From Clostridia bacterium (GTDB lineage: Bacteria > Bacillota > Clostridia > Christensenellales > Aristaeellaceae): a stretch of 39,412 nucleotides of DNA. The translations under genes and the position numbers were made by a program. Location of the stretch: assembly GCA_017427165.1 (NCBI GenBank), contig JAFRTK010000112.1, positions 1 through 39,412 on the forward strand, given 5' to 3'. Below, piece after piece: positions 3,295-24,196 of the stretch (its first letter is position 1; each line of letters begins with the position of its first letter). The notes under the pieces are model-generated. The model searched no databases. It was not told where the DNA came from and saw nothing but the letters and a program-made list of their open reading frames with translations.

Positions 3295-3312
3295 AAAAGG
3301 AGAGGAACAGGC

Positions 3313-5199
3313 GTGGAAGCATTGATTCCGAAATGGCACAGGGAACTGGAACTGTTCAGCGCGATCAAACCGCTGCTGATCCTGGAAGGGAATATCACCG
3401 ACCAGTACCGGTATCCGGTGGACGGATCCGTCCGGCAGGATGAGATTATTCCGCTGAGCCGTTACCTGCATGCCTATTTTTCCGACCAGGGATATGATCA
3501 GGTGCTGTTCTACAGCAACCTGCTGGGCTTTATGAGCCCTTATGATCCCTCGATGCTGGAACGGTTTGCCAACCTGACGGAGACGGAGATCAAATCCGGC
3601 GCGGTCCAGGCAGAATTCAAAGGAAACGGCGCCAACACCGCACCGAATGTGATCCGCCGCGCCATGTCGCAGCAGAAAGCGGCTACGGTGACCATCATGG
3701 AGATGGCCAGCCACTATATCACCACGCCGGAGCGGATGGACCAGGCGGATGTGAACAGCTTCAATATCCTGATGCAGAGCGCGCTGAGCGCTTCCTGGGT
3801 CCGGACAACGCACGGCAAAAAGCAAAACCTGCTGATCCTGCTGGTGAACAAGCTGAATGACCTGCCCGCATGGTTCTATCTGAATAACCCGGTATGCAAG
3901 ATCCTGCAGCTGGAGGCTCCGGACCGGGAGGAACGGAAACGCATGATGACCGGGACAAACTTCGCGTCCTTCTTCTCCGGCACCGTCTACCGGCGCGACA
4001 TGCCGTACTATACGGAATACCCGGAGGACCTGGAGCGGATTAAGGAACGGTTTGTCGGCCTGACCGAGGGCATGACCTTCACGGAACTGGACGAAATGCG
4101 GATGCTGTGCAAGAAGGAAGAAACGCCGATCCGCGACCTCTGTTCCGTGGTGGACCTGTACAAGTACGGCATCAAGGAAAACCCGTGGAGTACCCTGAGC
4201 GTAAAGAGCCTGAAAACTGCGAAGGCAGACTTTGAAAAGCGGATCAAGGGTCAGGATACCGCACTGGAACGCACACTGGATGTTGTCAAGCGCGCGGTGA
4301 CCGGCATGAACGGGCTGAATTCTTCTTCCACCGGAAAACCCAAGGGCGTGCTGTTCTTTGCCGGCCCGACCGGTACCGGCAAGACTGAGACGGCCAAAGC
4401 GCTGGCGGAAAAGCTGTTCGGTGATGAGAGCACCTGCATCCGGTTTGACATGAGCGAATACGGGCAGAGCCATTCCGACCAGAAGCTGATGGGCGCACCT
4501 CCCGGATACGTCGGATATGAAGCGGGCGGCCAGCTGACCAACGCGGTGAAGAAGAACCCCTTCTGTATCCTGCTGTTCGATGAAATCGAGAAGGCGCATT
4601 CCACGATCCTGGACAAATTCCTCCAGATCCTGGAGGACGGCCGGATGACGGACGGGCAGGGGAATACGGTATACTTCTCCGAAACGATCATCATTTTCAC
4701 CAGCAACCTGGGCATCTATGTCAAGGACGCTTTCGGCAACCGTGAACCCAACGTGACCATGGACATGCCGTATTCCGAAGTGCAGGCCCGTGTCCGCAGC
4801 GCGATTGAGGATTACTTCAAGCTGGAACTGGGACGGCCGGAAATCCTGAACCGGATCGGTGAAAACATCGTGGTGTTTGACTATATCCGGAAGGAAGCGG
4901 CCGACCTGATCCTGCAGGCGCAGGTGAACAAGATCACCCGGAACCTGCGGGAACAGAAGAACATCTCGATCCGGATCGAGGACTTTGCCTACAAGAGCCT
5001 GGAGGAAGCAGCCACCTTCGACCTGTCCAACGGCGGCCGGGGAATCGGCAACCAGGTGGAGAGCCTGCTGATCAATCCGCTGAGCCGCTGGCTGTTTGAC
5101 AATGAGATTACCGGTGACGCGAAGATCGTGATCGAAGGCTTTGATACGACAGCCAACCCGCCGAGCGTGCGCTGCCGCAGGGAAGGAGAGGACGCGTAA
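3313..5199 (+). CDS. ClpB-like AAA+ ATPase with divergent N-terminal half
   Basis: This 628-residue protein starts with GTG behind an AAGGAGAGG site. The C-terminal half is a Clp/HSP100 D2-type AAA+ module. Walker A (Gly-Pro-Thr-Gly-Thr-Gly-Lys-Thr) lies at about 351-358 and an Asp-Met-Ser-Glu-Tyr motif follows. The substrate pore loop Gly-Ala-Pro-Pro-Gly-Tyr-Val-Gly-Tyr and Walker B (Leu-Phe-Asp-Glu-Ile-Glu-Lys-Ala-His, about 419-427) come next, then sensor 1 (Thr-Ser-Asn-Leu) and a C-terminal lid. The N-terminal 300 residues have no Walker A. They do contain Leu-Glu-Gly-Asn-Ile-Thr-Asp near 24 and a sensor-like Leu-Leu-Val-Asn-Lys-Leu-Asn near 176, so this half may be a decayed AAA domain. 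There is no ClpP-binding IGF-type loop that I can see, which favours an unfoldase or remodeller over a protease subunit. Its stop overlaps the start of the next gene by one base. Confidence 0.85.
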   Translation: MEALIPKWHRELELFSAIKPLLILEGNITDQYRYPVDGSVRQDEIIPLSRYLHAYFSDQGYDQVLFYSNLLGFMSPYDPSMLERFANLTETEIKSGAVQAEFKGNGANTAPNVIRRAMSQQKAATVTIMEMASHYITTPERMDQADVNSFNILMQSALSASWVRTTHGKKQNLLILLVNKLNDLPAWFYLNNPVCKILQLEAPDREERKRMMTGTNFASFFSGTVYRRDMPYYTEYPEDLERIKERFVGLTEGMTFTELDEMRMLCKKEETPIRDLCSVVDLYKYGIKENPWSTLSVKSLKTAKADFEKRIKGQDTALERTLDVVKRAVTGMNGLNSSSTGKPKGVLFFAGPTGTGKTETAKALAEKLFGDESTCIRFDMSEYGQSHSDQKLMGAPPGYVGYEAGGQLTNAVKKNPFCILLFDEIEKAHSTILDKFLQILEDGRMTDGQGNTVYFSETIIIFTSNLGIYVKDAFGNREPNVTMDMPYSEVQARVRSAIEDYFKLELGRPEILNRIGENIVVFDYIRKEAADLILQAQVNKITRNLREQKNISIRIEDFAYKSLEEAATFDLSNGGRGIGNQVESLLINPLSRWLFDNEITGDAKIVIEGFDTTANPPSVRCRREGEDA

Positions 5200-5867
5200 T
5201 GGCTGAGGAAAACAAGGGAAACAACATGTCTCCCGCTGACGCGAGCGAACTGCTGCGGCGCATGAAAGCCATCGCGTCCGACCTGTGGCGGGAACCGCCG
5301 GAAGATGTGGTGCCTGAACCGAAAAAGCAGGAAGCAAAGCCGGCCAAGGTGGTTGTCAGGAAACCGAAGATCGGTATTGACAACCTGTGGATGACAGCGG
5401 ATGAAACCATTGAATGGACGGACGCGCTGGCCCATGAATGGCCGACGGACGGCCTGACTCCCCAGAACCTGTGGGAGTTTTACCACCAGCATGCAGAAGC
5501 TGTGCTGAACGGAGACCTGACTGCCTATACGGAGGTTCTCCGCAAGGCCAACCCGCTGGGTGAGCTGATGGAATACGCACACGGGATCAGCATGCGCGCA
5601 CCGGATGCCGACCGGCTGGAAGCGATGTTTACCGGCCGGGATGAGCACATGGAAAAGAACGCGAAGCAGTACCTTTCTGCCATGGGGGTCCGGATCGCAC
5701 GGGACCTGCTGGCCTGCCTGCCGGTGAGCGAAGTCCGTGTCACCGCGTCCTGGAAGGGTGAAACCGTGATGGACGCTGTATACCGCCGGGAACAGCTGCT
5801 GCACCGGAATTTCAGTTTCCTGGACCCGGTGAAGCTGACCGAGGAATGCGGTGCGGTATTCAACTGA
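5199..5867 (+). CDS. unknown protein coupled to the ClpB-like ATPase
   Basis: This 222-residue protein is not recognised. Its ATG shares one base with the TAA of the AAA+ gene, the closest possible coupling and a sign that the two products work together. The first 70 residues are hydrophilic, with a Pro-Lys-Glu-rich stretch around 35-50, and are probably a flexible tail. The remaining 150 residues look like a mainly helical globular domain. There is no signal peptide or membrane segment, so it should be cytoplasmic. A cofactor or adaptor for the ATPase is the simplest guess; nothing in the sequence proves it. It is the last gene before the terminator. Confidence 0.8.
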   Translation: MAEENKGNNMSPADASELLRRMKAIASDLWREPPEDVVPEPKKQEAKPAKVVVRKPKIGIDNLWMTADETIEWTDALAHEWPTDGLTPQNLWEFYHQHAEAVLNGDLTAYTEVLRKANPLGELMEYAHGISMRAPDADRLEAMFTGRDEHMEKNAKQYLSAMGVRIARDLLACLPVSEVRVTASWKGETVMDAVYRREQLLHRNFSFLDPVKLTEECGAVFN

Positions 5868-5886
5868 ACAAATCTGCAGAAGCATG

Positions 5887-5924
5887 AAAAACAGGATGCC
5901 CGGAAGGACATCCTGTTTATATTG
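5887..5924. terminator. bidirectional terminator
   Basis: A perfect 10-bp stem (5889-5898 with 5909-5918) encloses a 10-base loop. A-rich sequence lies on the left and T-rich sequence on the right, so it can end transcription from both converging genes. Confidence 0.8.
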
Positions 5925-5936
5925 AAGGCCGGGATA

Positions 5937-6905
5937 TCAGTAGCCAATGGCTTCCAGGATCCGGTCGGTTACACGGGCAACCAACAGGGAAAACTCCCTG
6001 GAAACATGGGGATTTTCGAGCCCGCGGACGCAGCGGCCGAGCTGTTCGACCTCCAGGGTATAGTTGTTCCGGACGGAAACGGTTTTTGTTTCCGATACTC
6101 CGTCCCGGGTAACGGTATACGGAATATCCCCGCCCTGGTTGAATTCCACCGGGGAAACAATTGTCCCCTTCGTTCCGAATATGCGGAAACGGTCCAGCCG
6201 CCCATGCGGCAGCAGCATGCCGCAGTCCAGGGCCGCAACGGATTCATCATCATAAAGCAGCAGGGCGGAGGTAAACAGGTCGATTCCCTTCTCTGAGAAC
6301 TGGGCCGATGCACGAACGGTATCCGGCTCTTTTCCGATCATCCACATGGCCATGCTGACCGCATAGCATCCGAGGTCATACATGGCACCACCGTATGTTT
6401 CCTTCCGCAGGCGGATATCTGTATCCGGCCGGCGGCCGGTAATAAAGGCGGATTCCATATACCGGATATCACCGATTGTCCCGGCTTCCAGTTCCGATTT
6501 CACTGCTTGCACAAACGGGCTGTGAAGATAGGCAAAAGCTTCCATCAGGAAAACCCCGTTTGCTTCGGCAGCGGCAAACATCTCCTTTACCTGTGCTTCG
6601 GAAACCGCCAGGGGTTTTTCGCACAGGACATGCTTGCCGGCCTGCAGCGCACGGATTGACCAGGCACAGTGCAGGTCGTTCGGGAGGGGAATATAAACCG
6701 CCTCCACCTCGGGGTCAGCCAGCAGTTCCTCATAGCTTCCGTATGCTTTCCGGAAACCGAATGCATCCCGGAAGGCCTGTGCCTTTTCCAGGCTGCGCCC
6801 GGCAACCGCAAACAGTTCGCAGTTTTCCGCCTGCTGCATTCCGGGAATTGTTGCTCCCCGTGCGATATCCGCAGTGCCGAGAACTCCCCACCGGACCTTA
6901 TCCAT
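5937..6905 (-). CDS. Gfo/Idh/MocA family NAD(P)-dependent oxidoreductase
   Basis: This 322-residue oxidoreductase has an N-terminal Rossmann fold (Trp-Gly-Val-Leu-Gly-Thr-Ala-Asp-Ile at 6-14). The family's catalytic Glu-Lys-Pro motif is at 96-98, inside His-Val-Leu-Cys-Glu-Lys-Pro-Leu-Ala. A C-terminal alpha/beta substrate domain contains Tyr-Asp-Leu-Gly-Cys-Tyr, the usual dinucleotide-side helix. Such enzymes oxidise or reduce sugars, inositols or related polyols; the substrate cannot be read from sequence. The open frame continues far upstream, but the chosen ATG at 6905 has a GGAGG site seven bases before it and matches the family's length. It is monocistronic and convergent with the cluster to its left. 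An imperfect palindrome upstream at 6942-6961 could be an operator. Confidence 0.92.
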   Translation of the reverse strand: MDKVRWGVLGTADIARGATIPGMQQAENCELFAVAGRSLEKAQAFRDAFGFRKAYGSYEELLADPEVEAVYIPLPNDLHCAWSIRALQAGKHVLCEKPLAVSEAQVKEMFAAAEANGVFLMEAFAYLHSPFVQAVKSELEAGTIGDIRYMESAFITGRRPDTDIRLRKETYGGAMYDLGCYAVSMAMWMIGKEPDTVRASAQFSEKGIDLFTSALLLYDDESVAALDCGMLLPHGRLDRFRIFGTKGTIVSPVEFNQGGDIPYTVTRDGVSETKTVSVRNNYTLEVEQLGRCVRGLENPHVSREFSLLVARVTDRILEAIGY

Positions 6906-6941
6906 ATATACGACCTCCATCCTGTGTATCATTTTTAAACT

Positions 6942-6961
6942 GTCCGATAAAAGTATCGTAC
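6942..6961. promoter_or_regulatory. palindrome upstream of the oxidoreductase
   Basis: An inverted repeat has a CGATA/TATCG core (6945-6949 and 6954-6958) around a four-base centre. Two further matching pairs lie outside one mismatch. It sits about 40 bases before the oxidoreductase start, where an operator would lie. No convincing -35/-10 pair was found here. Confidence 0.35.
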
Positions 6962-7073
6962 ACGTTAGAGCATACTCGAAGTCAAATATCTTTTCTTCCG
7001 CTTGCCACGGCGGCGAAAACCGCATATGATACTGGCAGAAGGATATGCCCGGCTGCAGCAGGAGGGGAGGCGG

Positions 7074-7343
7074 ATGCCGGTGAGAAAACGGTATATGTTT
7101 ACCGGCAGTGTCCAGGGAGTCGGATTCCGCTGGCGCGCGAAGCAGGCTGCTTTCCTTTATGACTGCACCGGATGGGTCCGGAATGAATGGGACGGATCGG
7201 TCACAATGGAAATCCAGGGAAAGGAGCCGGATATTGAACGCGTCCTGGGTGCGGTCCGGGACGGGCGGTATATATGGATTGAAGGAATGGACGAGGAAAT
7301 CATTCCGGAAGAACCCGGAGAATACGGTTTCCGGACAGAATAA
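7074..7343 (+). CDS. acylphosphatase
   Basis: This 89-residue cytoplasmic enzyme hydrolyses acyl phosphates such as acetyl or 1,3-bisphosphoglycerate. The substrate-binding loop Val-Gln-Gly-Val-Gly-Phe-Arg provides Arg19. Gly-Trp-Val-Arg-Asn provides Asn37, followed by the usual Asp-Gly-Ser-Val. The Arg-Asn spacing of 18 residues is that of the well-studied enzymes. An earlier in-frame ATG at 7002 would add 24 residues absent from the family. The ATG at 7074 follows a GGAGGGGAGG site directly, so it was chosen. The gene runs away from the oxidoreductase and ends in a strong hairpin. Confidence 0.95.
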   Translation: MPVRKRYMFTGSVQGVGFRWRAKQAAFLYDCTGWVRNEWDGSVTMEIQGKEPDIERVLGAVRDGRYIWIEGMDEEIIPEEPGEYGFRTE

Positions 7344-7374
7344 GGCGCAGGCTGAATGCCTGCGCCTTATTACC
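7339..7374 (+). terminator. hairpin after the acylphosphatase gene
   Basis: A perfect 14-bp stem (7339-7352 with 7358-7371) has a five-base loop and overlaps the stop codon. The T tract after it is short. The minus strand carries a long T run at 7376-7388 before reaching the hairpin, which could also help end the tRNA transcript. Confidence 0.75.
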
Positions 7375-7422
7375 TGAAAAAGAAAAAACCCGGAACCCAT
7401 TGATACAACGTGCTCCAGGCGA

Positions 7423-7498
<76 letters not shown>

Positions 7499-7522
7499 AT
7501 GCTGTCTTGCGACAACGAACGA

Positions 7523-7551
7523 ATAATACCACAACAGCGGCGGTTTTGCAA
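7523..7551 (-). promoter_or_regulatory. promoter of tRNA-Thr
   Basis: On the minus strand a TTGCAA -35 box (7546-7551) is followed after 17 bases by a TATTAT -10 box (7523-7528). This places the transcript start just before the mature tRNA end at 7498. Confidence 0.65.
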
Positions 7552-7585
7552 GGGGTTTTTTCAAAGATTCTTTCTTTTTCCGGCG

Positions 7586-7614
7586 TTGACATCGGCGGGA
7601 TGAAGGCATAGTAT
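7586..7614 (+). promoter_or_regulatory. promoter of the P-type ATPase gene
   Basis: A perfect TTGACA -35 box (7586-7591), a 17-base spacer and a TAGTAT -10 box (7609-7614) lie 33 bases before the ATG of the P-type ATPase. The promoter is back to back with that of the tRNA. Confidence 0.7.
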
Positions 7615-7647
7615 GGAAAAGACAACCCATACCATGGAGGAACTCTG

Positions 7648-10038
7648 ATGGAACACAGGCTTTCCCTTCCGGACAAATGGCCGGAGGACTTTGAATATAC
7701 GGATGAACAGGGACTGACAGACGGGCGGGCGGCAGAGCTTGCCGCACAGGGCCTTGGAAGCGCACTGCCGGAGGCGGATGTCAAACCGTTCCGGACAATC
7801 CTGCGGGACAATCTCTTTACTCTTTTCAATATGCTGAACTTTGCGCTGGCTGTCTGCCTGCTCCTGGTAGGCAGTTACCGGAACATGCTGTTCATCCTGA
7901 TTGTGGCGGCGAATATCCTGATCGGTACGGTCCAGGAGTACCGGGCGCAGCAGACCATCCGGCGGATGCGGCTCCTGAACGCCCCGCAGGTGAATGTAAT
8001 CCGGGAGGGTATGGAAAAACCGGTCCGGCCGGGTGAGGCAGTGAAGGGTGACCTGGCGGTTTTCCGGGCGGGTGACCAGGTGATTGCCGACGCGGTTGTT
8101 GTATCCGGAAGCGGACTGGCGATGGAATCCCTGCTGACCGGGGAAAGCGACGCGGTGCCGAAAAAGGTCAATAACTGGCTGTATTCCGGCAGCTATATTA
8201 CGGAAGGGAAACTGACCGCCCAGCTGGTTTATGTGGCGGATGAAAGCTATGTCGGGCGCCTGACCGGGGAAGCCCGGAAGAACACCCGCGCGGGATCCCG
8301 GCTGATGGAGGAACTGAACCGCCTGATCCGGATTGACAGCTATATCCTGGTGCCGCTGGGGATCCTGCTTTTCCTGAAGCAGCTGATCCTGAACGGAACG
8401 GGCGGAAATCCGCTCCCGTTTGCCGAGGTGGCCCGGGATGCCGTCCCCGCGTCCGTTGCGGCAATGATCGGAATGATTCCGGAGGGCCTGATCCTGCTGA
8501 CCAGTATCGCGATGGCGGTCGGCGTGATCAAGCTGGCCCGCCGCCAGACGCTGGTGCAGGAGCTGGCCGGGATCGAAACATTGGCGCGGGCGGACGTGCT
8601 CTGCCTGGATAAGACCGGAACCATCACCACGGGTGAGATGGAGGTCAGCCTGATCGAAGGCGTGGACGCATCCGGTGCGGAAACAGAACATGCCCTGGCG
8701 CGGCTGCTGGGCGCGTTTGATGAAAAGAGCCCGACGCTGGATGCGCTGCGGAAGGCGGTGAAACCCGGCAATGAGGTTCCGAAGGCGGTTGTACCATTCT
8801 CATCGGAGAGAAAAAAATCCGCGGCTTCATTCCGCGACGGAACTGCCCTGATCCTCGGTGCGCCGGAATACGTACTCGACCAGATTCCGGACAGCCTGCA
8901 GGAACGGATCAGCGCGCTGACAGCGGAAGGAAAGCGGGTGATCATCCTTGCGGAAGGCCGGGGAATCGTGACCCCGGAAGAAATGCCGGCGGTGCAGTCT
9001 GTCTGCGGTATTATCGCGCTGACAGACCAGATCCGTCCCGGGGCAGAAGAGACGCTGCGCTATTTCCGGGAGCAGGGTGTGGAGATCAAGGTCATTTCGG
9101 GGGACAACCCGCAGACCGTATCCCGGATTGCGAAACAGGCCGGCCTGACCGGATGGGACCGGCAGGTGGATGCCCGGGAACTGAATACTCCGGAAGCCAT
9201 CGCGGCAGCCTGTGAGCAGTATACTGTGTTCGGGCGGGTGTCGCCGGAACAGAAGAAGCAACTGGTGACAGCCATGAAGGAGAAGGGGCACAGTGTGGCG
9301 ATGACCGGGGACGGTGTGAACGATATTCCGGCCCTGAAAAGCGCGGACTGCTCCATCGCCATGGCCGGCGGCGCAGAGGCCGCCCGCCACGCAGCCCAGC
9401 TGACGCTGATGGAATCAGATTTCAGCGTTATGCCGGAAATTGTGCTGGAAGGACGGCGCGTGATCAACAATATCACCCGTGCGGCAAGCCTTTTCCTGAC
9501 CAAAACGCTGTTCAGCTTTTTCCTGAGTATCCTGATGATGTTCCTTCCGGGGCTGTATCCGTTTGAGCCGATCCAGCTGACGCTGATCTCCTCACTGACG
9601 GTCGGGATTCCCGGATTTTTCCTGGCACTGGAGCCCAGCACGGAACGTGTGAAGGGCAGCTTCCTCCGGACCGTTCTGTTCCGGGCGCTTCCGGGAGGAA
9701 TTGCAGTGGCGCTCTGCGCCACGCTGGCGATCCTCCTGACCGATACATACGGATGGAGCCGTGAAACCGGATCCACACTGGCGACACTGAGCGCCGGAGT
9801 GGTCGGCTTTGTGGTGCTGCTTCGTACCTGCCTGCCGCTGAACGGACGCAGGGCTGCATTGCTGGCTGCCGTTGCCGGGGCGTTCACCCTGGCGGTTATC
9901 CTGGCCGGATCCCTCTTCAGGCTGGTGCCGCTGGACGGGAAAGCCATGACGGTATTCCTGCTGCTGGCTGTGCTCGGGTGCGCAATCGTGGTCATATCCG
10001 GAACCGTACTGCAGAGGCGGCGGAAAGCATCCCGCTGA
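7648..10038 (+). CDS. P-type cation-transporting ATPase, CtpE-like
   Basis: This 796-residue membrane pump has the full P-type signature set. Thr-Gly-Glu-Ser of the actuator domain is near 165. The ion-site motif Ile-Pro-Glu-Gly of helix M4 is near 277-280. The phosphorylated Asp321 lies in Asp-Lys-Thr-Gly-Thr, and Thr-Gly-Asp-Gly-Val-Asn-Asp is near 553-559. Hydrophobic segments lie at about 65-100, 230-290 and 610-790. There is no heavy-metal CXXC domain and no CPC motif, so it is not a copper- or zinc-type pump. The overall length and the Ser-Gly-Ser near 188 resemble mycobacterial CtpE, a calcium transporter. Calcium is therefore my preferred cargo, but this is inference. A GGAGG site precedes the ATG and its promoter is at 7586-7614. 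Confidence 0.93.
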   Translation: MEHRLSLPDKWPEDFEYTDEQGLTDGRAAELAAQGLGSALPEADVKPFRTILRDNLFTLFNMLNFALAVCLLLVGSYRNMLFILIVAANILIGTVQEYRAQQTIRRMRLLNAPQVNVIREGMEKPVRPGEAVKGDLAVFRAGDQVIADAVVVSGSGLAMESLLTGESDAVPKKVNNWLYSGSYITEGKLTAQLVYVADESYVGRLTGEARKNTRAGSRLMEELNRLIRIDSYILVPLGILLFLKQLILNGTGGNPLPFAEVARDAVPASVAAMIGMIPEGLILLTSIAMAVGVIKLARRQTLVQELAGIETLARADVLCLDKTGTITTGEMEVSLIEGVDASGAETEHALARLLGAFDEKSPTLDALRKAVKPGNEVPKAVVPFSSERKKSAASFRDGTALILGAPEYVLDQIPDSLQERISALTAEGKRVIILAEGRGIVTPEEMPAVQSVCGIIALTDQIRPGAEETLRYFREQGVEIKVISGDNPQTVSRIAKQAGLTGWDRQVDARELNTPEAIAAACEQYTVFGRVSPEQKKQLVTAMKEKGHSVAMTGDGVNDIPALKSADCSIAMAGGAEAARHAAQLTLMESDFSVMPEIVLEGRRVINNITRAASLFLTKTLFSFFLSILMMFLPGLYPFEPIQLTLISSLTVGIPGFFLALEPSTERVKGSFLRTVLFRALPGGIAVALCATLAILLTDTYGWSRETGSTLATLSAGVVGFVVLLRTCLPLNGRRAALLAAVAGAFTLAVILAGSLFRLVPLDGKAMTVFLLLAVLGCAIVVISGTVLQRRRKASR

Positions 10039-16189: not shown

Positions 16190-16717
16190 ATGAGCAAGAA
16201 ACTGGAAGATTATGTTGTGACAATCCCGGACTTTCCGGAACCGGGGATTATGTTCCGGGATATTACATCGGTCATCCACGATCCGAACGGACTGAAGCTG
16301 GCGGTTGACGGGCTGGCTGGTTTGCTGGAGGATGTGGATTTTGACCTGGTGGTCGGGCCGGAATCCCGGGGATTCATCTTTGGCGTACCGGTTGCCTACC
16401 TGCGCGGAAAGGGCTTTGTGCCGGTCCGCAAAAAGGGAAAACTGCCCCGTGAAACTGTGAGCCAGAAATATGACCTGGAATACGGGCAGGCGGAAGTGGA
16501 AATACACAAGGATGCCGTCAAGCCGGGTCAGAAGGTGGTTATTGTGGATGACCTGATTGCCACCGGCGGATCCGCAGAAGCAGCAGCCAAGCTGGTGGAG
16601 AAGCTCGGCGGACAGATTGTCCGGATGGTATTTGTGATGGAACTGGCCGGGCTGGAAGGCCGGAAGAAACTGGCTGGTTATGATGTGCAGTCCCTGATCG
16701 TTTATCCCGGAAAATAA
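16190..16717 (+). CDS. apt: adenine phosphoribosyltransferase
   Basis: This 175-residue cytoplasmic enzyme turns adenine and PRPP into AMP for purine salvage. The PRPP-binding motif Val-Val-Ile-Val-Asp-Asp-Leu-Ile-Ala-Thr-Gly-Gly-Ser lies at about 116-128. The N-terminal Phe-Arg-Asp-Ile-Thr near 24 and the Gly-Pro-Glu-Ser-Arg-Gly-Phe near 64 are typical of Apt rather than of other phosphoribosyltransferases. The length is standard. GGACGGAGGG upstream of the ATG serves as the ribosome binding site. It is monocistronic and divergent from tdk, so the two nucleotide salvage genes share one intergenic region. Confidence 0.96.
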   Translation: MSKKLEDYVVTIPDFPEPGIMFRDITSVIHDPNGLKLAVDGLAGLLEDVDFDLVVGPESRGFIFGVPVAYLRGKGFVPVRKKGKLPRETVSQKYDLEYGQAEVEIHKDAVKPGQKVVIVDDLIATGGSAEAAAKLVEKLGGQIVRMVFVMELAGLEGRKKLAGYDVQSLIVYPGK

Positions 16718-17427: not shown

Positions 17428-17442
17428 CATAGACAGTCTATG
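17428..17442. promoter_or_regulatory. palindromic operator candidate over the -35 box
   Basis: CATAGAC-A-GTCTATG is a perfect 15-base palindrome. It covers the entire -35 hexamer of the promoter for the solute-binding protein gene, the position expected for a repressor site. Confidence 0.55.
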
Positions 17443-17458
17443 TTGAATATGTTATTAT
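17430..17458 (+). promoter_or_regulatory. promoter of the sensory module
   Basis: A TAGACA -35 box (17430-17435), a 17-base spacer and a TATTAT -10 box (17453-17458) lie 60 bases before the ATG at 17519. This is the only promoter I see for the three genes up to 23291. Confidence 0.7.
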
Positions 17459-17518: not shown

Positions 17519-18448
17519 ATGAAGAAGCCGAGAATAAAGCAGATATTCGCAATGCTGATTGCGGCAGCTGTTTTATGCTTTTCCGGCGGAAGTGATTTCG
17601 GAGTGTGCGAAGGGTCCGTATATACTGTAAATGAATGGAATTATGTGGACAGTTCCATGGACGTGAGCGGCGGAATTCCGGAAGATGCTTCCGGTACGCT
17701 GGCCAGGATCCGGGAACGGGGCGTCCTTCGTGTGGCAACCGAGCCGTATTATCCTCCCCAGGAATTTATTGATCCGGCTTTTGACGGGCAGGACAAATAC
17801 AGGGGGGCCGATATGGAACTGGCCCGGCTGATTGCCGAGCGGATGGGGGTGGAACTCCAGATTTCCGGAATGGAATTCAGGGACGTACTGCCGGCAGTTG
17901 CCGGTGACGAATGCGACCTGGCCATTTCCGCCCTTTCATTTACCCCGGGACGCGCCTCTTCCCATACGATGTCCAAAGGATACTATTTTTCCGATATTCC
18001 CAAGACCGTGATCATCATCCGGGCGGCTGACGAAGCAGAAATCAAATCGGTTGAAGACCTGGCCGGGAAGACACTGGCGGCCCAGCAGGGATCCCTGCAG
18101 GAGGCGGTGATGGCTGCAGGAGTGTATGTTTACAAGGAATTCCGCCGCATGTCGCAGGTTCAGGAAGTATACAGCGCTGTTGCGCGGGGAAATGCAGATG
18201 CCGGCGCCGTGGACGCGGAAACCGCGATTGAGTACCTGGAAAACAATCCGCAGGACGGCCTAATGATTGTTCCCGGGATCGAGTTCCCGCTGCGGTATGA
18301 ATACCTGGGTGACCGGATTGCGGCCCGGAACGGGGAATACCAGCTGATTGCCTTTGTGAACGGTGTGATTGACGAAGTGCTGGAAAACCAGATGTATGAT
18401 GAATGGATCGCAGAAGCCCGGCAGCGTGCCCGGGAGCTTGGAATGTAA
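17519..18448 (+). CDS. family 3 solute-binding protein of a sensory module
   Basis: This 309-residue exported protein has a signal peptide in the first 30 residues and an amino-acid-type periplasmic binding protein fold (SBP family 3) from about residue 58. Markers are Gly-Val-Leu-Arg-Val-Ala-Thr near 68-74, Gly-Ala-Asp-Met-Glu-Leu-Ala near 99, and Cys-Asp-Leu-Ala-Ile-Ser near 138. Others are Leu-Ala-Gly-Lys-Thr-Leu-Ala near 181 and a Tyr-Asp-Glu-Trp near the end. Usually such proteins feed an ABC permease, but no permease or ATPase gene follows. The next gene, 15 bases on, is a large receptor. A role as the ligand-binding arm of that receptor is therefore inferred. GAGGTG before the ATG is the ribosome binding site. 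No standard lipobox is present, so how it stays at the membrane is unclear. Confidence 0.9.
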   Translation: MKKPRIKQIFAMLIAAAVLCFSGGSDFGVCEGSVYTVNEWNYVDSSMDVSGGIPEDASGTLARIRERGVLRVATEPYYPPQEFIDPAFDGQDKYRGADMELARLIAERMGVELQISGMEFRDVLPAVAGDECDLAISALSFTPGRASSHTMSKGYYFSDIPKTVIIIRAADEAEIKSVEDLAGKTLAAQQGSLQEAVMAAGVYVYKEFRRMSQVQEVYSAVARGNADAGAVDAETAIEYLENNPQDGLMIVPGIEFPLRYEYLGDRIAARNGEYQLIAFVNGVIDEVLENQMYDEWIAEARQRARELGM

Positions 18449-18463
18449 GCGGAGGGAACAGGT

Positions 18464-21400
18464 ATGAAAAAATGGAAATTTCCCCTGTTCTGTATCTGGA
18501 TTGTCATCTGCCTGATGCTGAATTACGGCGGGCGGATGCTTTCCATCCACCTGAGCCTTCCGGTATGGCTGGATTCCCTTGGGACCGTGCTCTGCGCCTA
18601 TGTTGCAGGACCGCTGTGCGGCGCGATGGTCGGCCTGACTACCAACCTGGTCTTCTATGTAACAATCGGATATAATTGGGTTTACGGCCTCATCAGCATC
18701 CTGATTGCTGTGATTGTCGGTATTGCAGCCCACCGGAAACGGATGGATGACCTGTTCGGCATCATGACGGTGGGCGGTATCATGGCGCTTGCCTGTACAG
18801 CCGCCTGTGTCCCACTGAACTATTTCATGAACGATGGCAGTACCGGAAACATCTGGGGTGATGCCGTGATCGGATACCTGCGGGAGCTTTCGATGCCGGA
18901 TGTGCTGTGCCTGTCGATCGGACAGCTGTATGTGGAAATGCTGGACAAGCTGCTGATCATGCTGCTGCTGTACATTGCCGTATTGATTTCCGGAATTCCG
19001 AAAATCCGGCGGATCCTGCAGGAGATCAAGGTGGTCCGGCGGAAGGCAGCGGCCGGCGGGGAAAAAGCCGCGAAGGCGCTGGCCCTGATTATCGCTGCCG
19101 GAATCTGCATGGCCGGAATGCCGGCAGAGGTGCAGGCGGACGCGGAGAAAACCGAATTCAACGACTATGTTCAGACGATCTATTCCAGTACCAACGGACT
19201 GCCGTGCGGGGAAGCGAATGACATCGCGCAGACCAATGACGGCATCCTGTGGATCGGCACCTATGCCGGACTGTACCGCTACAACGGACGGGAATTCCGC
19301 TGGATGGACTATGAATCCGTCCGGAACGTGAACTCCCTGTATGTGGATGAGGAAGGCCGGCTATGGATCGGGACCAATGACAACGGCCTGTCCATTGCGA
19401 TCAACGAACAGATTGTGAATGTGATTGACCAGGCGCGCGGGCTTCCGAGCAATTCCGTGCGGGATATCGTCTGCAGTTCGGACGGATACTACTATATCGG
19501 CACCACCAACAGCCTGCAGGTGCTGACAATGAATTACGGGCTGCGGCAGGTGAATACGCTGACGGAAATCTATTATGCCGATGACATGGACGCGGACAGG
19601 GAAGGCCATGTCGCAACGGTGACGTCAGGCGGCACGCTGTACCTGCTGCAGGGAGGGACCGTGCTTTCCTCCCGGCAGATGACAGACGGGAAAACGGTGT
19701 TTAAAAGCTGTGAGTTTGATACAAACGGACACCTGCTGGCCGCGACCACGGGACATGAGATCTATGAATTTGATATCAGCCGGGGCTGGTTTGACGACAT
19801 CGGCGTGATTCCCACCGGCACACTGGAAAGCATCAAGGATATCGACCGGATGGATACCGGTGAGCTTCTGGTCACCGCGGACAACGGTGTCGGGGTGATC
19901 CGGCAGGACGGCACTTTTGAGCAGATCAATACGAATGAATTCAACAATTCCATTGACAAGGTTATGGAGGATTACCAGGGGAACCTGTGGTTTACGTCCT
20001 CCCGGCTGGGACTGCTGCGGCTGGCACCGTCTGATTTCCGGGATATATACACCACGGTGGGGATGGAAAACCGGGTGGTGAATACGACCGCCCTGTGGCA
20101 GGGAACCTATTATTTCGGTACAGACAAAGGACTGGACGCGGTGGACCCTGCGTGCCGGAACCGGATTACGAACGAACTGACACAACAGATGGAGGGATCC
20201 CGGATCCGGTGCATGATCACCGATTCGAATAACCATCTGTGGATCTGCACCTACAATAACGGACTGTTCGAGGTGGAACCGGACGGCACCCAGCACCAGT
20301 ACAGCGGGATCACTGCCGGATTCGGCAACCGTGCGCGGGTGGTGACAGAGCTGACGGACGGAACCATCCTGGCGGCCGGGGATACAGGAATCATCTATAT
20401 CCGGGACCACCAGATCACCCACCGGATCATGTATTCCAGCGGGATGATCCATTCGATGATCCTGACGCTGGTGGAAATGGACAACGGGATTGTACTGGCC
20501 GGAACGGACGGAAACGGGATTGCGGTACTGCGGGACGGAAGGGCGGAGCGCATGCTGACCCGCGCGGACGGACTCGGCTCCGAGGTGGTCCTGCGGATGG
20601 TCCGGGATCCGGAAAACGGCGGAGTTTTTATTGTGACCAGCAACGGGCTGTGCTACATGGACACGGATGCATCCATCCGGAAGCTGGACAATTTCCCGTA
20701 CTTCAACAATTATGATATATGGATCGGCGAAAACGGTTCCCTGTTTGTGATGTCCAGCGCCGGTATTTATGTGGTGAACCGTAGTGAACTGCTGAGCGGA
20801 CGGGAGGAGATCAGCTACGAGCTGCTGGATTCCCGGCGCGGGCTGAACAGCTCTCTGACCGCGAATTCCTGGACCTATTTCAATGAGGCTGCCAACGAAC
20901 TGTTCCTTGCGTGCGACACAGGCGTATTTGTGATCAATACCGCGAAATATTCCGCGGACAGCCAGACATACCGCATGAGTGTGCCATCGGTCCGGATGGA
21001 CGGTGTCATCCACCGGATGGAGCGGGGGATGCCGCTGACAATCGGCCGGGGTGTCCGAAAGCTGGAGCTGTATCCGGAAGTGGTAAACTATACCATCCAG
21101 GATCCGAATGTGGGATACAAGCTGGAGGGATTTGACCGGGAATGGACGATTATTCCGCAGAACAGCCTCGGGACGATTACTTATACCAACCTGCCGGACG
21201 GGAATTACAATTTCCGGCTGGCGGTATTTGACAGCAACCAGGAGAGTATCCTGGCGGAACGTTCCTACGAAATCATTAAGGATATGGAACTGCAGGACCG
21301 GCCCGGTTTCATTGCATACCTGCTGACCATTCCCATGTTTACGGTCGGCTGGCTGACCTGGCTGTACTTCAAACGCCGGAACCAGCGGATTGAGCGGGAA

Positions 21401-22090
21401 CTGGCGGAAGCCAACCGCCGGGTTGAGATGGGCAAACAGACCGTGGCTGCCATTGCGAAAGCGGTGGACGCCAAGGATGAGCGCACCGGAGGCCACAGCC
21501 AGCGTGTCGCGGAATATTCCCGGCTGATTGCCAAAGCGTGCGGGATGAACAAGGACGAATGCCAGGAAGTGGAGTGGGCGGCAAAGCTGCACGATATCGG
21601 CAAGATCGCAATTCCGGATGCCATCCTGAACAAGGACGGCCGCCTGACGGACGAGGAATACGCGCGCATGAAATCCCATACACTGGAAGGAGCGGAAATC
21701 CTGAAGGATTTCACGCTGCTCAAGCATGTGACGGAAGGCGCTGAATTCCACCATGAACGGCCGGACGGAAAAGGATATCCGCGGGGCCTGAAGGGGGAGG
21801 AAATTCCCGTATACGCCCGGATTATCGGCGTGGCCGACGCCTTTGACGCGATGACCGCCACCCGCGTCTACCGGAAGCAGATGGACTTCAGCTATGTACT
21901 TGGTGAACTGGAAAAAGGCCGGGGCACCCAGTTTGATCCGAAATATGTGGATATCCTGCTGAACCTGATTCATACCCGGGAAATCGATATCAACAAGATG
22001 TACGGGATTCCGATGGACGAAAGCACACAGGGAACTCCCGCGGAGAATGCCGGAAGCCCGGCAGGGACTCCGCAGGGAAAGGAGGCATGA
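18464..22090 (+). CDS. receptor: ECF S-like membrane domain, beta-propeller, Y_Y_Y, HD-GYP
   Basis: This 1208-residue protein joins four parts. Residues 1-185 are a membrane domain with about five or six helices; Trp-Leu-Asp-Ser-Leu-Gly-Thr-Val and the following Gly-Pro-Leu-Cys-Gly-Ala-Met-Val-Gly resemble ECF transporter S components. A further hydrophobic stretch at 203-220 leads outside. Residues 228-820 are repeated Leu-Trp-Ile-Gly-Thr blades of a two-component-regulator propeller, followed by a Y_Y_Y domain at about 865-925. A membrane helix at about 949-970 leads to a cytoplasmic HD-GYP domain at about 996-1180, with Leu-His-Asp-Ile-Gly-Lys near 1040 and His-His-Glu-Arg-Pro-Asp-Gly-Lys-Gly-Tyr-Pro near 1096. 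HD-GYP enzymes hydrolyse cyclic-di-GMP, and the key residues are intact. I infer that an external ligand controls this activity. A GGAGGGAAC site precedes the ATG. Confidence 0.92.
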   Translation: MKKWKFPLFCIWIVICLMLNYGGRMLSIHLSLPVWLDSLGTVLCAYVAGPLCGAMVGLTTNLVFYVTIGYNWVYGLISILIAVIVGIAAHRKRMDDLFGIMTVGGIMALACTAACVPLNYFMNDGSTGNIWGDAVIGYLRELSMPDVLCLSIGQLYVEMLDKLLIMLLLYIAVLISGIPKIRRILQEIKVVRRKAAAGGEKAAKALALIIAAGICMAGMPAEVQADAEKTEFNDYVQTIYSSTNGLPCGEANDIAQTNDGILWIGTYAGLYRYNGREFRWMDYESVRNVNSLYVDEEGRLWIGTNDNGLSIAINEQIVNVIDQARGLPSNSVRDIVCSSDGYYYIGTTNSLQVLTMNYGLRQVNTLTEIYYADDMDADREGHVATVTSGGTLYLLQGGTVLSSRQMTDGKTVFKSCEFDTNGHLLAATTGHEIYEFDISRGWFDDIGVIPTGTLESIKDIDRMDTGELLVTADNGVGVIRQDGTFEQINTNEFNNSIDKVMEDYQGNLWFTSSRLGLLRLAPSDFRDIYTTVGMENRVVNTTALWQGTYYFGTDKGLDAVDPACRNRITNELTQQMEGSRIRCMITDSNNHLWICTYNNGLFEVEPDGTQHQYSGITAGFGNRARVVTELTDGTILAAGDTGIIYIRDHQITHRIMYSSGMIHSMILTLVEMDNGIVLAGTDGNGIAVLRDGRAERMLTRADGLGSEVVLRMVRDPENGGVFIVTSNGLCYMDTDASIRKLDNFPYFNNYDIWIGENGSLFVMSSAGIYVVNRSELLSGREEISYELLDSRRGLNSSLTANSWTYFNEAANELFLACDTGVFVINTAKYSADSQTYRMSVPSVRMDGVIHRMERGMPLTIGRGVRKLELYPEVVNYTIQDPNVGYKLEGFDREWTIIPQNSLGTITYTNLPDGNYNFRLAVFDSNQESILAERSYEIIKDMELQDRPGFIAYLLTIPMFTVGWLTWLYFKRRNQRIERELAEANRRVEMGKQTVAAIAKAVDAKDERTGGHSQRVAEYSRLIAKACGMNKDECQEVEWAAKLHDIGKIAIPDAILNKDGRLTDEEYARMKSHTLEGAEILKDFTLLKHVTEGAEFHHERPDGKGYPRGLKGEEIPVYARIIGVADAFDAMTATRVYRKQMDFSYVLGELEKGRGTQFDPKYVDILLNLIHTREIDINKMYGIPMDESTQGTPAENAGSPAGTPQGKEA

Positions 22091-22094
22091 CGCC

Positions 22095-23291
22095 ATGAAA
22101 AAGAGGTATTATGCCGCAACGGCTCTCATCTGTATCCTGATGCTGCTGGCGTTCGCGCTGGCATCCGGCTATTTCACGCGGACCAGCCCGGACAACTCCA
22201 TGGCAGTCGGTTTTATCTATTCAGAAGATGAAAGCACACCCTATACATATAATTTCACCCAGGGACAGCGGGCACTGGCGGAGCAGTACGGCCGCCGCGT
22301 CCGGATCCTGGTGCAGAGCAATGTGCACGGCAGGGAGGCGGAGGAACCGATCCGCGACCTGATCCGGAAGGGATGCCGGCTGATATTTATCAATGTGGAT
22401 ACGGAAGCAGCCGCGCAGCTGTGCGCGGAATATCCGGATGTCCAGTTTTGCCAGGTATCCCTGCCGGGAATTGATCCGAAGGAACTGCCGGAGAATTACC
22501 ATACCTTCAACGGGGAAATCTACCAGGCCCGGTATGTCGCCGGCGTGGCCGCAGGAATGAAGCTCCGGGCCCTGATGGACGCGGGGGATATCCGCCCGGA
22601 GGACGCAAAGGTCGGATATGTGGCAGCCAACAACAGCGCGGAGGTTGTGTCGGGCTATACGGCATTTATCCTCGGAGTGCGGGCGGCAGCTCCGGAAGCG
22701 GTGATGCGGGTTCGCTATACGGGAAGCTGGAGCAATTACAGCGTGGAAAAGAACGTTGCCCGGCAGCTGATTGAAGAGGGATGTATTGTGATTTCCCAGC
22801 ACACCAATACCATTGCACCGGCGATTGCGTGTGAGGAAGCCGCTGCGAAGGGGAACCGGGTGTATCATGTCGGGTATCACCAGAGCATGATGGACGTTGC
22901 GCCATCCACCGCGCTGGTCAGCCTGCGGACCAACTGGACCCCCTACATTCTCAGCGCAACGGAAGCGGTAATGAACGGGCATACGATTGAGAGCGTTGTC
23001 CCCGGACATGTCCACGGGCGGGATATCAGCGCCGGATTTGACCAGAACTGGGTACAGCTGCTGGAACTGAACAAGCAGCTTGCGGCCCCCGGTACCGAGG
23101 ACCGGCTGAACCGGGTCATCGATTCCCTGAAAAAAGGGAAGACGGAAGTGTTCCGCGGGAACTATACCGGCGTGAATCCGGATGAACCGGCGGACACAAT
23201 CGACCTGAAGGCGGGATACCGGGAAAACAAGTCGTCTTCCGCACCGTCCTTCCGGTATATCCTGCAGGATATCATCATGGAAGAAAACTGA
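22095..23291 (+). CDS. BMP family (PnrA-like) substrate-binding protein
   Basis: This 398-residue protein belongs to the Bmp/PnrA family, whose known members bind purine nucleosides outside the cell. The N-terminus is a basic tip and one long hydrophobic helix (about 7-25) with no lipobox cysteine, so it is probably membrane-anchored or cleaved after Ala-Leu-Ala-Ser. The fold follows with Val-Gly-Phe-Ile-Tyr near 38, Tyr-Asn-Phe-Thr-Gln-Gly near 52, and Val-Gly-Tyr-Val-Ala-Ala-Asn near 174. His-Thr-Asn-Thr lies near 236 and His-Val-Gly-Tyr-His-Gln near 257. The start at 22095 has a GGAGG site nine bases upstream; an earlier in-frame start lacks one. It lies four bases past the receptor's stop. 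No ABC permease or ATPase follows, which points to sensing rather than uptake. Confidence 0.88.
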   Translation: MKKRYYAATALICILMLLAFALASGYFTRTSPDNSMAVGFIYSEDESTPYTYNFTQGQRALAEQYGRRVRILVQSNVHGREAEEPIRDLIRKGCRLIFINVDTEAAAQLCAEYPDVQFCQVSLPGIDPKELPENYHTFNGEIYQARYVAGVAAGMKLRALMDAGDIRPEDAKVGYVAANNSAEVVSGYTAFILGVRAAAPEAVMRVRYTGSWSNYSVEKNVARQLIEEGCIVISQHTNTIAPAIACEEAAAKGNRVYHVGYHQSMMDVAPSTALVSLRTNWTPYILSATEAVMNGHTIESVVPGHVHGRDISAGFDQNWVQLLELNKQLAAPGTEDRLNRVIDSLKKGKTEVFRGNYTGVNPDEPADTIDLKAGYRENKSSSAPSFRYILQDIIMEEN

Positions 23292-23319: not shown

Positions 23320-23350
23320 GCGGTATCCGGATTTCCCGGATACCGCTTTT
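23320..23350 (+). terminator. terminator of the sensory module
   Basis: A perfect 11-bp stem (23320-23330 with 23336-23346) has a five-base loop and is followed by TTTT. It closes the three-gene transcript. Confidence 0.85.
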
Positions 23351-23423: not shown

Positions 23424-23446
23424 CCAGACCGTAAGAGGTGAATGGC

Positions 23447-24196
23447 ATGAATTACGCAGAGGTTATCCGAACACGGCGAACCGCCCTGGGAATGAACCAG
23501 GCTGAGCTGGCGGAGAAAACAGGCGTCAGCCGGAACACCGTTGCCGGATGGGAGACCGGCCATTCACGGCCGGATCCGGATACGATCCCGAGGCTGTGCG
23601 ACGCGCTGCGGATTTCGATCAACCGGTTCTTCGGACGGGAATCGAAACGGACGGAAGCAGAGCAGAAAATCCTTTCCCTGTTCGCCTCGCTGGAAAGCGG
23701 GGATCGGCAGGTGATTCTCTGGCAGATGGAAGCCCTCCGGGACCGGCGGGCGGCCCAGCGGGCCTCCGAAGAGGCAGTTCCGCCCAAGGTGGTTTCCCTG
23801 TTCATGAACGACCTGGGAGCCGCGGCCGGATTCGGCGCCGCGCTGGGAGAAGCCCAGGGAGAACGGATTACCCTGCTGGCGGATCCGGAAACGGAGCGGG
23901 CAGATGAAGTGATCACCGTATGCGGCAACAGTATGGAACCCACGTACATGGACGGGGACCGGGTACTGGTGGAGCATACCGGACATCTCCGTTACGGGGA
24001 AATCGGCATCTTCCTGGTGGATAACGAAGGATACATCAAGGAGTACCGGGAAGACGGACTGCATTCCCACAATCCCGCATACCGGACGATGACCTTCCGG
24101 GAAGACCAGCCGGTACGCTGTATCGGCCGGGTAATCGGGAAATTGAAGGACAGCCAGATCCCCACGAAAAGCCAGCTGCGGATGCTGGACAAATGA
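23447..24196 (+). CDS. LexA/CI-type repressor: HTH plus S24 self-cleavage domain
   Basis: This 249-residue regulator has an N-terminal Cro/CI helix-turn-helix (about 6-58, with Met-Asn-Gln-Ala-Glu-Leu-Ala and Val-Ser-Arg-Asn-Thr-Val). A C-terminal S24 peptidase domain follows. Ser162 in Cys-Gly-Asn-Ser-Met-Glu-Pro and Lys198 in Tyr-Ile-Lys-Glu-Tyr are the expected catalytic pair, 36 residues apart. Ala127-Gly128 is a fitting self-cleavage site just ahead of the domain. Such proteins are inactivated by RecA-stimulated self-cleavage in the SOS response, or act as phage-type repressors. No prophage genes surround it. The start at 23447 has an AGAGGTG site; the GTG at 23438 is part of that site and was not used. 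It probably regulates itself and the small gene that follows. Confidence 0.92.
   Translation: MNYAEVIRTRRTALGMNQAELAEKTGVSRNTVAGWETGHSRPDPDTIPRLCDALRISINRFFGRESKRTEAEQKILSLFASLESGDRQVILWQMEALRDRRAAQRASEEAVPPKVVSLFMNDLGAAAGFGAALGEAQGERITLLADPETERADEVITVCGNSMEPTYMDGDRVLVEHTGHLRYGEIGIFLVDNEGYIKEYREDGLHSHNPAYRTMTFREDQPVRCIGRVIGKLKDSQIPTKSQLRMLDK

Follow-up and report, generated by a model that had tools for sequence, protein, structure and literature searches.

A receptor–Bmp gene pair as a candidate extracellular nutrient sensor for cyclic di-GMP breakdown in Clostridia

The closest described counterpart of the genes analysed here is the NspS-MbaA system of Vibrio cholerae, in which, according to the available excerpts of the reports, a periplasmic binding protein informs a membrane cyclic di-GMP enzyme (PMC8967002; PMC5646818); an excerpt of a third report places the system in Sinorhizobium meliloti as well (PMC9993111). 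In Pseudomonas aeruginosa, RmcA senses L-arginine in cyclic di-GMP turnover by means of an SBP_bac_3 domain, as described in the available part of a review on cyclic di-GMP inputs (PMC8846402). That part names SBP_bac_3 as the sole family of the PBP clan which has been studied, and lists sensory domains without tested roles; purines, nucleosides and propellers are not mentioned in it (PMC8846402). On the side of membrane sensors, the excerpt on BtsS describes a seven-helix histidine kinase which uses its LytS-type membrane domain as a metabolite sensor, and a binding protein does not appear in that description (PMC10653868). For the Bmp family, the excerpt on AtzT describes a guanine stacked between Tyr45 and Trp194, with bonds to Glu165, Asn218, Asn220, Ser97 and the Phe98 backbone (PMC6834077).

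The whole stretch of DNA that was analysed, 39,412 nucleotides long, is called the window. It contains three genes on the same strand at 17519-23291, encoding a family 3 solute-binding protein (SBP), a receptor and a Bmp-type binding protein (Table 1). The genes are separated by gaps of 15 and 4 bases, and no ABC gene (ATPase or permease) was found within the module or the window; both the tight packing and the absence of ABC genes from the module had been claimed in the preliminary description, and both were borne out. A leftover of an ABC operon was ruled out, as the module has no permease or ATPase gene, and the adjoining ATPase and permease genes that mark a Bmp-ABC transporter are absent from the window. 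The Pfam E-values in the window are 5e-20 for SBP_bac_3, 5e-42 for HD_5, 1e-21 for Reg_prop, 3e-10 for Y_Y_Y and 2e-25 for Bmp. The listed open reading frame of Bmp begins at 22047, but the start at 22095 was preferred because it fits the gap of 4 bases and sits after a AAAGGAGG site. The preliminary description also placed the module between one promoter and one terminator. The terminator is supported by a strong hairpin, but the scan found 5 promoter-like sites against 4.9 in shuffled sequences, which is a chance number, and so the site in Table 1, though plausible, is no evidence by itself.

Table 1. Features of the three-gene module and their positions in the window.
Feature	Position	Strand	Basis or remark
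Promoter-like site TAGACA-17-TATTAT, TG ahead of second hexamer	17430..17458	+	tentative
Family 3 solute-binding protein (SBP), 309 aa	17519..18448	+	Pfam SBP_bac_3
Conserved SBP N-terminal extension NEWNY...GIP, candidate docking segment	17618..17698	+	49 SBP sequences
Receptor (REC), 1208 aa	18464..22090	+	Pfam domains, hydropathy
ECF S-like membrane domain, about 6 hydrophobic segments, residues 1-181	18464..19006	+	profile comparison, hydropathy
Further hydrophobic segment, residues 201-225	19064..19138	+	hydropathy, comparison with relatives
Reg_prop propeller and Y_Y_Y domain, predicted extracellular	19148..21268	+	Pfam, PDB matches; topology from hydropathy
Last membrane helix, residues 949-967	21308..21364	+	hydropathy
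HD-GYP domain, residues 998-1160	21455..21943	+	Pfam HD_5, alignment
Bmp binding protein of purine/nucleoside type (PnrA-like, AtzT-like), 398 aa, hydrophobic segment at the N-terminus	22095..23291	+	
Intrinsic terminator-like hairpin, 11 pairs, T tail, strong	23320..23346	+	

The left side of the module holds an adenine phosphoribosyltransferase gene just upstream (16190-16717) and a 147-aa gene on the reverse strand with no NCBIfam match. A similar phosphoribosyltransferase gene lies upstream in three genus relatives (L034, L043 and L177), which may be a coincidence of genus synteny. Directly past the module terminator is the gene of an XRE regulator with a LexA/signal-peptidase-like C-terminal part (23438-24196), and a similar XRE gene is found downstream of Bmp in genus genome G013 (L175). 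Rfam returned one tRNA for the window.

Named genomes were scanned with the receptor alone as query; 209 relatives were found and the best 80 were kept. Their depositor labels are Clostridia, Clostridiales, Lachnospiraceae, Butyrivibrio, Blautia, Oscillospiraceae and Ruminococcaceae, and many of these 80 loci came from ruminants by title. It was found that Bmp directly follows the receptor in 77 of the best 80, while in the remaining 3 the contig stops within or at the receptor. Chance neighbours were ruled out, as Bmp is present in all 77 named loci with sequence past the receptor. The receptor stop and the Bmp start overlap as ATGA in 58 of the 77 (usually by 4 bases), and the unusual gaps in L058 and L098 are due to stop codons inside the receptor gene. 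Some G+C-rich loci had their Bmp or SBP overlooked by the ORF caller, and all adjacency counts were therefore taken from tblastn. No transporter gene family recurs with the receptor-linked Bmp in the 80 named loci; the largest neighbour family outside the module occurs in 12 of them and consists of ABC exporters, judging by its longest member. In the neighbour clustering, a 21-locus cluster comprised only reverse-strand ORFs, 23 of 28 inside the module, and was taken as shadow ORFs; the receptor cluster absorbed 39 members outside the module, and other HD-GYP/GGDEF neighbours were not counted apart. A GGDEF gene as the regular fourth member was rejected, since a motif scan flagged only 5 of 64 downstream regions; in two of these five, L085 and L090, Pfam confirmed a GGDEF gene adjoining Bmp.

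For the alignments, 101 of 112 receptor, 94 of 131 Bmp and 49 of 87 SBP sequences which passed the score and a looser length limit were used, those left out being copies or outside tighter length limits. The receptor and Bmp distances correlate with r 0.47 over 45 loci, a value which is not informative. In a class sample of 391 genomes, 11 receptor matches were obtained at E 1e-150, 3 of them full-length with the own genome among them; Bmp adjoins the receptor in the other two (L178 and L179), and there is no family 3 gene in their 1.5-kb flank. The module is real, and its core is two genes, the receptor and Bmp.

Variations of the unit were also seen. In G147, one of these two other genomes of the class sample (L190, 2.7-11.6 kb), a PurF-like gene (195 bits, with a cut-off of 350) and an amino-acid-type operon of family 3 protein, permease and ATPase lie downstream of the receptor-Bmp pair in the same orientation. 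In L053, positions 2-1465 of the contig with the main copy hold the terminal part of another receptor gene together with another Bmp, and G456 and G458 have two close family 3 genes each, so that the unit is sometimes duplicated.

On the other hand, the family 3 gene is not part of the core. The preliminary description had suggested counting how often the three genes stay together without ABC genes; the receptor and Bmp stay neighbours in 77 of the 80 loci, but the family 3 gene was found upstream of the receptor in only 30 of these best 80 of 209. It is absent upstream in the other 50, for which 0.7-10 kb of upstream sequence was covered, and hence the "two binding proteins" of that description, both present in the window, are a lineage feature. 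A substitute binding protein upstream in the 50 loci was ruled out. A same-strand upstream ORF exists in 37 of them and these ORFs mostly differ, with seven alike pairs, one at 87% identity and the others below 30%. In seven isolate genomes without the linked gene, the best family 3 match is 26-30% identical, and two of the seven gave no family 3 match at E 1e-12. In the receptor tree (FastTree), 3 changes account for the 51 rows that have no family 3 gene. A single clade, nested among rows with the gene, takes in 48 of them, L055 and L107 stand beside this clade, and L179 is basal with a long-branch warning. This nesting indicates that the gene was probably lost secondarily in the main clade.

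The SBP itself belongs to SBP_bac_3. Arg145 is found in 49 of the 49 aligned sequences and Asp232 in 39, and from GlnBP we take both to be residues of the amino-acid site. The N-terminus of the window protein is signal-like without a lipobox pattern, and a simple lipobox pattern occurs in only 2 of the 49 sequences. Since a free secreted protein of a cell without an outer membrane would need an anchor, the receptor is a candidate for holding the SBP at the cell. Ahead of the binding domain, the N-terminal extension carries its motif in 45 of 49 sequences and GIP in 47 of 49, and this extension may dock on the receptor.

Within the genus, 37 genomes (G000-G036) were compared. The receptor is present in 29 of them, at about 53-67% identity along most of the protein. 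The family 3 protein occurs in the same 29, and Bmp in 28. Bmp lies beside the receptor on the same contig in 27 of the 28; in G019 it is on another contig and the receptor runs off its own, and in G029 the contig stops soon past the receptor. The family 3 gene adjoins the receptor in 28 of 29 genomes, with the exception of G013, where it lies on a separate contig, next to ABC genes that by eye form a sugar-type operon. One stop codon each was found in the family 3 frame of G012 and the receptor frame of G034. The eight genomes without all three genes are 54-88% complete, and one missing contig each could explain the joint absence.

A second Bmp, 31-38% identical, exists in 31 of the 37 genus genomes. 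In G002 it is a 35% identical paralogue heading an ATPase-permease-permease operon, and G045, from the same order, is arranged similarly; the second Bmp of the own genome lies at a contig end. This second Bmp, together with the ABC-linked family 3 gene of G013, would fit binding proteins that serve transporters encoded elsewhere, for example the Bmp-ABC operon, and that are merely co-expressed with a receptor whose propeller senses some other signal; carbohydrate binding has been proposed for the propellers of related sensors. However, the ABC operon has its own Bmp, and the receptor and its Bmp are paired in mostly different surroundings with no transporter family along. We counted the second, ABC-linked Bmp in favour of a sensor and regard service to a distant transporter as quite unlikely. 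The preliminary description had held that homologues next to complete ABC transporters in close relatives would speak against the module; the ABC-linked Bmp of G002 is a paralogue and leaves the orthologues unaffected, but the family 3 gene of G013 does stand beside an ABC operon. Taken by gene content, the neighbouring genes suggest a dedicated nutrient sensor rather than a transporter.

The receptor joins an ECF S-like domain of six segments to a propeller and an HD-GYP domain. The resemblance of its first domain to ECF S components, proposed at the outset, is weak in Pfam (E 0.002, under the cut-off) and firm by profile comparison, which upholds the proposal. The NF045596 (CD3073) profile matches 76 of 76 S-like domain sequences at E<=0.01, and comparison of the profile of these domains with one from 13 stand-alone S proteins gave a match probability of 99.9% (E 1e-35, 171 columns). 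The stand-alone profile in turn matches FolT structures, while the S-like domain profile gave no PDB match up to E 1. Residues common to both sets include D-x-x-G-T and a final D-K. In terms of ECF S membership, homology and six hydrophobic segments are thus present, with the window domain scoring 62.8 bits on NF045596 against a cut-off of 180. The S-domain alignment covered 75 of the 80 named loci and the full-receptor alignment 65. From hydropathy, the charged N-terminus is placed inside, and since the helices ahead of the propeller are odd in number, the propeller would lie outside the cell and the HD-GYP domain in the cytoplasm.

The surroundings of stand-alone S genes were examined at 20 loci taken from 245 sampled genomes. 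Of the 20, 7 have a neighbouring gene for a nucleoside hydrolase or phosphorylase (six by Pfam, and L215 by likeness to L214), and in L212 and L216, which encode the S proteins closest to the receptor's domain, phosphorylase, T and A genes are all present. The other 13 have no recognisable nucleoside gene in the 1.5-kb flanks; all six over-cut-off CD3073 members are within these 13, and so the ligands within the S family may differ. Five of the over-cut-off CD3073-type genes (L204, L206, L207, L208 and L209) adjoin a small-protein gene, which in L204 has a weak 2-thiouracil desulfurase match (25 bits against a cut-off of 34.7) and may hint at the ligand of these S proteins. From the homology to S proteins of operons with nucleoside phosphorylase, T and A genes, it could be argued that the S-like domain still transports, with Bmp passing a nucleoside on to a combined importer and sensor. 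This we consider very improbable, as the receptor has no recurring T or A neighbour across the 80 named loci, and AxxxA, the T-contact motif of ECF S components, occurs in 5 of 76 receptors compared with 6 of 13 stand-alone S proteins.

Relatives with only part of the architecture show which combination goes with Bmp. Bmp was found beside none of the S-like-HD-GYP proteins without a propeller (0 of 9 stretches of 7-8 kb), and beside none of the propeller-HD-GYP proteins without the S-like domain (0 of 10, with about 1.3-1.5 kb downstream and 0.1-1.5 kb upstream). Therefore, Bmp goes with the combination of S-like domain and propeller, and its docking site is not assignable to one of the two. 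The 10 proteins without the S-like domain start with a signal-like segment, an N-terminal signal or anchor, at the place of the 201-225 segment of the receptor. Other fusions were also noted. L237-L245 encode direct fusions of this S-like domain with HD-GYP, in proteins of about 570-740 aa; the gene in L245 adjoins a separate propeller gene, and in L231 the domain is fused, by eye, to a histidine kinase. One of the 10 propeller-HD-GYP genes, in L189 (G118, 3296-8917), is embedded in an amino-acid ABC operon in the order family 3 protein, receptor, permease and ATPase, the last two recognised by eye and motif, which hints at a possible tie between receptors of this kind and family 3 proteins.

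The window Bmp scores 89.8 bits on PF02608 against a gathering score of 24.1, and its closest structures are 3s99 and AtzT. The AtzT residues were mapped onto it by hand from the HMMER alignment: Tyr45, Trp194, Glu165, Asn218, Asn220 and Ser97 correspond to Tyr50, Trp212, Glu183, His236, Asn238 and Val101, respectively. Over the 94 receptor-linked Bmps, Tyr, Glu and Trp are each kept in 93 at the places of Tyr45, Glu165 and Trp194, the Asn218 place is His in 91 and the Asn220 place (238) is Asp or Asn in 92, while the Ser97 place is not kept, being Gly in 55. The sandwich and the acid of an AtzT-type purine pocket are thus retained, and the nucleoside-type assignment made earlier holds as a predicted purine/nucleoside type with most of the pocket kept. 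A lipobox pattern is present in 13 of the 94, and the own paralogue seems to be without one too; the pattern was of no use as a mark of receptor-linked Bmp. Taken together, the Bmp pocket and the kinship of the S-like domain to S proteins of nucleoside operons are two unrelated parts that indicate a purine or nucleoside signal.

The same domains could be read in another way, in which the propeller, or the S-like domain directly, reads the signal, while Bmp inhibits the receptor or takes part in its assembly and binds a ligand only secondarily. Of 76 S-like domains, 40 are matched by the 5TMR-LYT profile PF07694, and the LytS-type membrane domain of BtsS binds its metabolite directly in the excerpt cited above (PMC10653868); moreover, NspS itself is thought to act on MbaA, with norspermidine enhancing the effect, in the available part of that report (PMC5646818). 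The pocket of Bmp is almost invariant at most places, however, which favours ligand binding, and we hold direct sensing to be unlikely.

At the output end, H1043, D1044, K1047, H1096, H1097, D1101, G1104, Y1105 and P1106 are invariant in a 66-row alignment. With these intact HD, HHE and GYP residues and the HD_5 match at E 5e-42, the domain falls within the HD-GYP class, and the receptor is a predicted cyclic dinucleotide phosphodiesterase. Its best PDB match is 5z7c, a 3'3'-cGAMP-specific phosphodiesterase, from which one may suppose 3'3'-cGAMP rather than cyclic di-GMP as the substrate. The match to 4mcw, a metal dependent phosphohydrolase which is presumably a cyclic di-GMP HD-GYP enzyme, is nearly as good, however; the domain also matches 4r8z, a cyclic di-GMP phosphodiesterase, and the own genome has 11 GGDEF matches, so we give the cGAMP substrate little credence. 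No PilZ or flagellin match was obtained in the own genome, which is 80% complete and in which control profiles matched.

We favour, as probable on balance, a sensor which is dedicated to nutrients outside the cell and governs the breakdown of cyclic di-GMP. In such a sensor, Bmp would bind an extracellular purine base or nucleoside, and the loaded Bmp would engage the outer face of the receptor through the propeller, the S-like domain or both. The family 3 protein, where present, would add an amino-acid-type input, perhaps docking via its extension, and two ligands of amino-acid and purine type may then act on one hydrolase. A signal through the last helix would switch the cytoplasmic HD-GYP domain, which would lower or raise the cyclic di-GMP made by the GGDEF enzymes of the cell. 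A more specific form of this sensor is possible but doubtful: a captured transporter part turned sensor, in which Bmp would feed the ECF S-like domain, itself nucleoside-binding, in series, linking extracellular purines to cyclic di-GMP with a separate, lineage-dependent amino-acid input. To our knowledge, a binding protein and an ECF S-type domain do not normally cooperate.

The conserved linkage makes purines or nucleosides the candidate input class of a receptor that occurs in many gut and rumen Clostridia. The module also suggests a route by which transporter modules get recycled into sensors, and as a minimal two-gene pair its ligand and output are directly measurable. Among the literature matches listed, judged by title and the start of the abstract and with most subscription journals outside the coverage, there was no Bmp-paired or S-like/propeller HD-GYP receptor.

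When compared with the known systems, each part of the module has relatives in another context. Its Bmp shares the family with AtzT, Brucella 3s99 and Borrelia BmpD (PMC7093131, available excerpt), and with AtzT most of the purine pocket as well, but these proteins are described or presumed parts of transporters, whereas the window Bmp is paired with a receptor. The six-segment domain is homologous to ECF S components such as CD3073 of NF045596 and FolT, but here it is fused to a signalling protein without T or A partners and scores under the NF045596 cut-off. It shares a related profile with the membrane domain of LytS-type 5TMR-LYT receptors such as BtsS. The outer propeller is like that of the Reg_prop/Y_Y_Y hybrid two-component sensors (4a2l, 3v9f), unlike which the present receptor has an HD-GYP output, an extra S-like domain and binding proteins. 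The SBP_bac_3 domain of RmcA lies inside the enzyme protein, whereas here it is a separate protein. By gene content alone, the closest likeness is to NspS-MbaA, in that a dedicated binding protein and a membrane cyclic di-GMP enzyme occur with no transporter genes. MbaA is a GGDEF-EAL protein and NspS binds polyamines, however, in contrast to the propeller, S-like and HD-GYP domains and the Bmp-type and family 3 proteins found here. By this analogy, our best reading is that the module may work like NspS-MbaA from non-homologous parts without being a member of that system.
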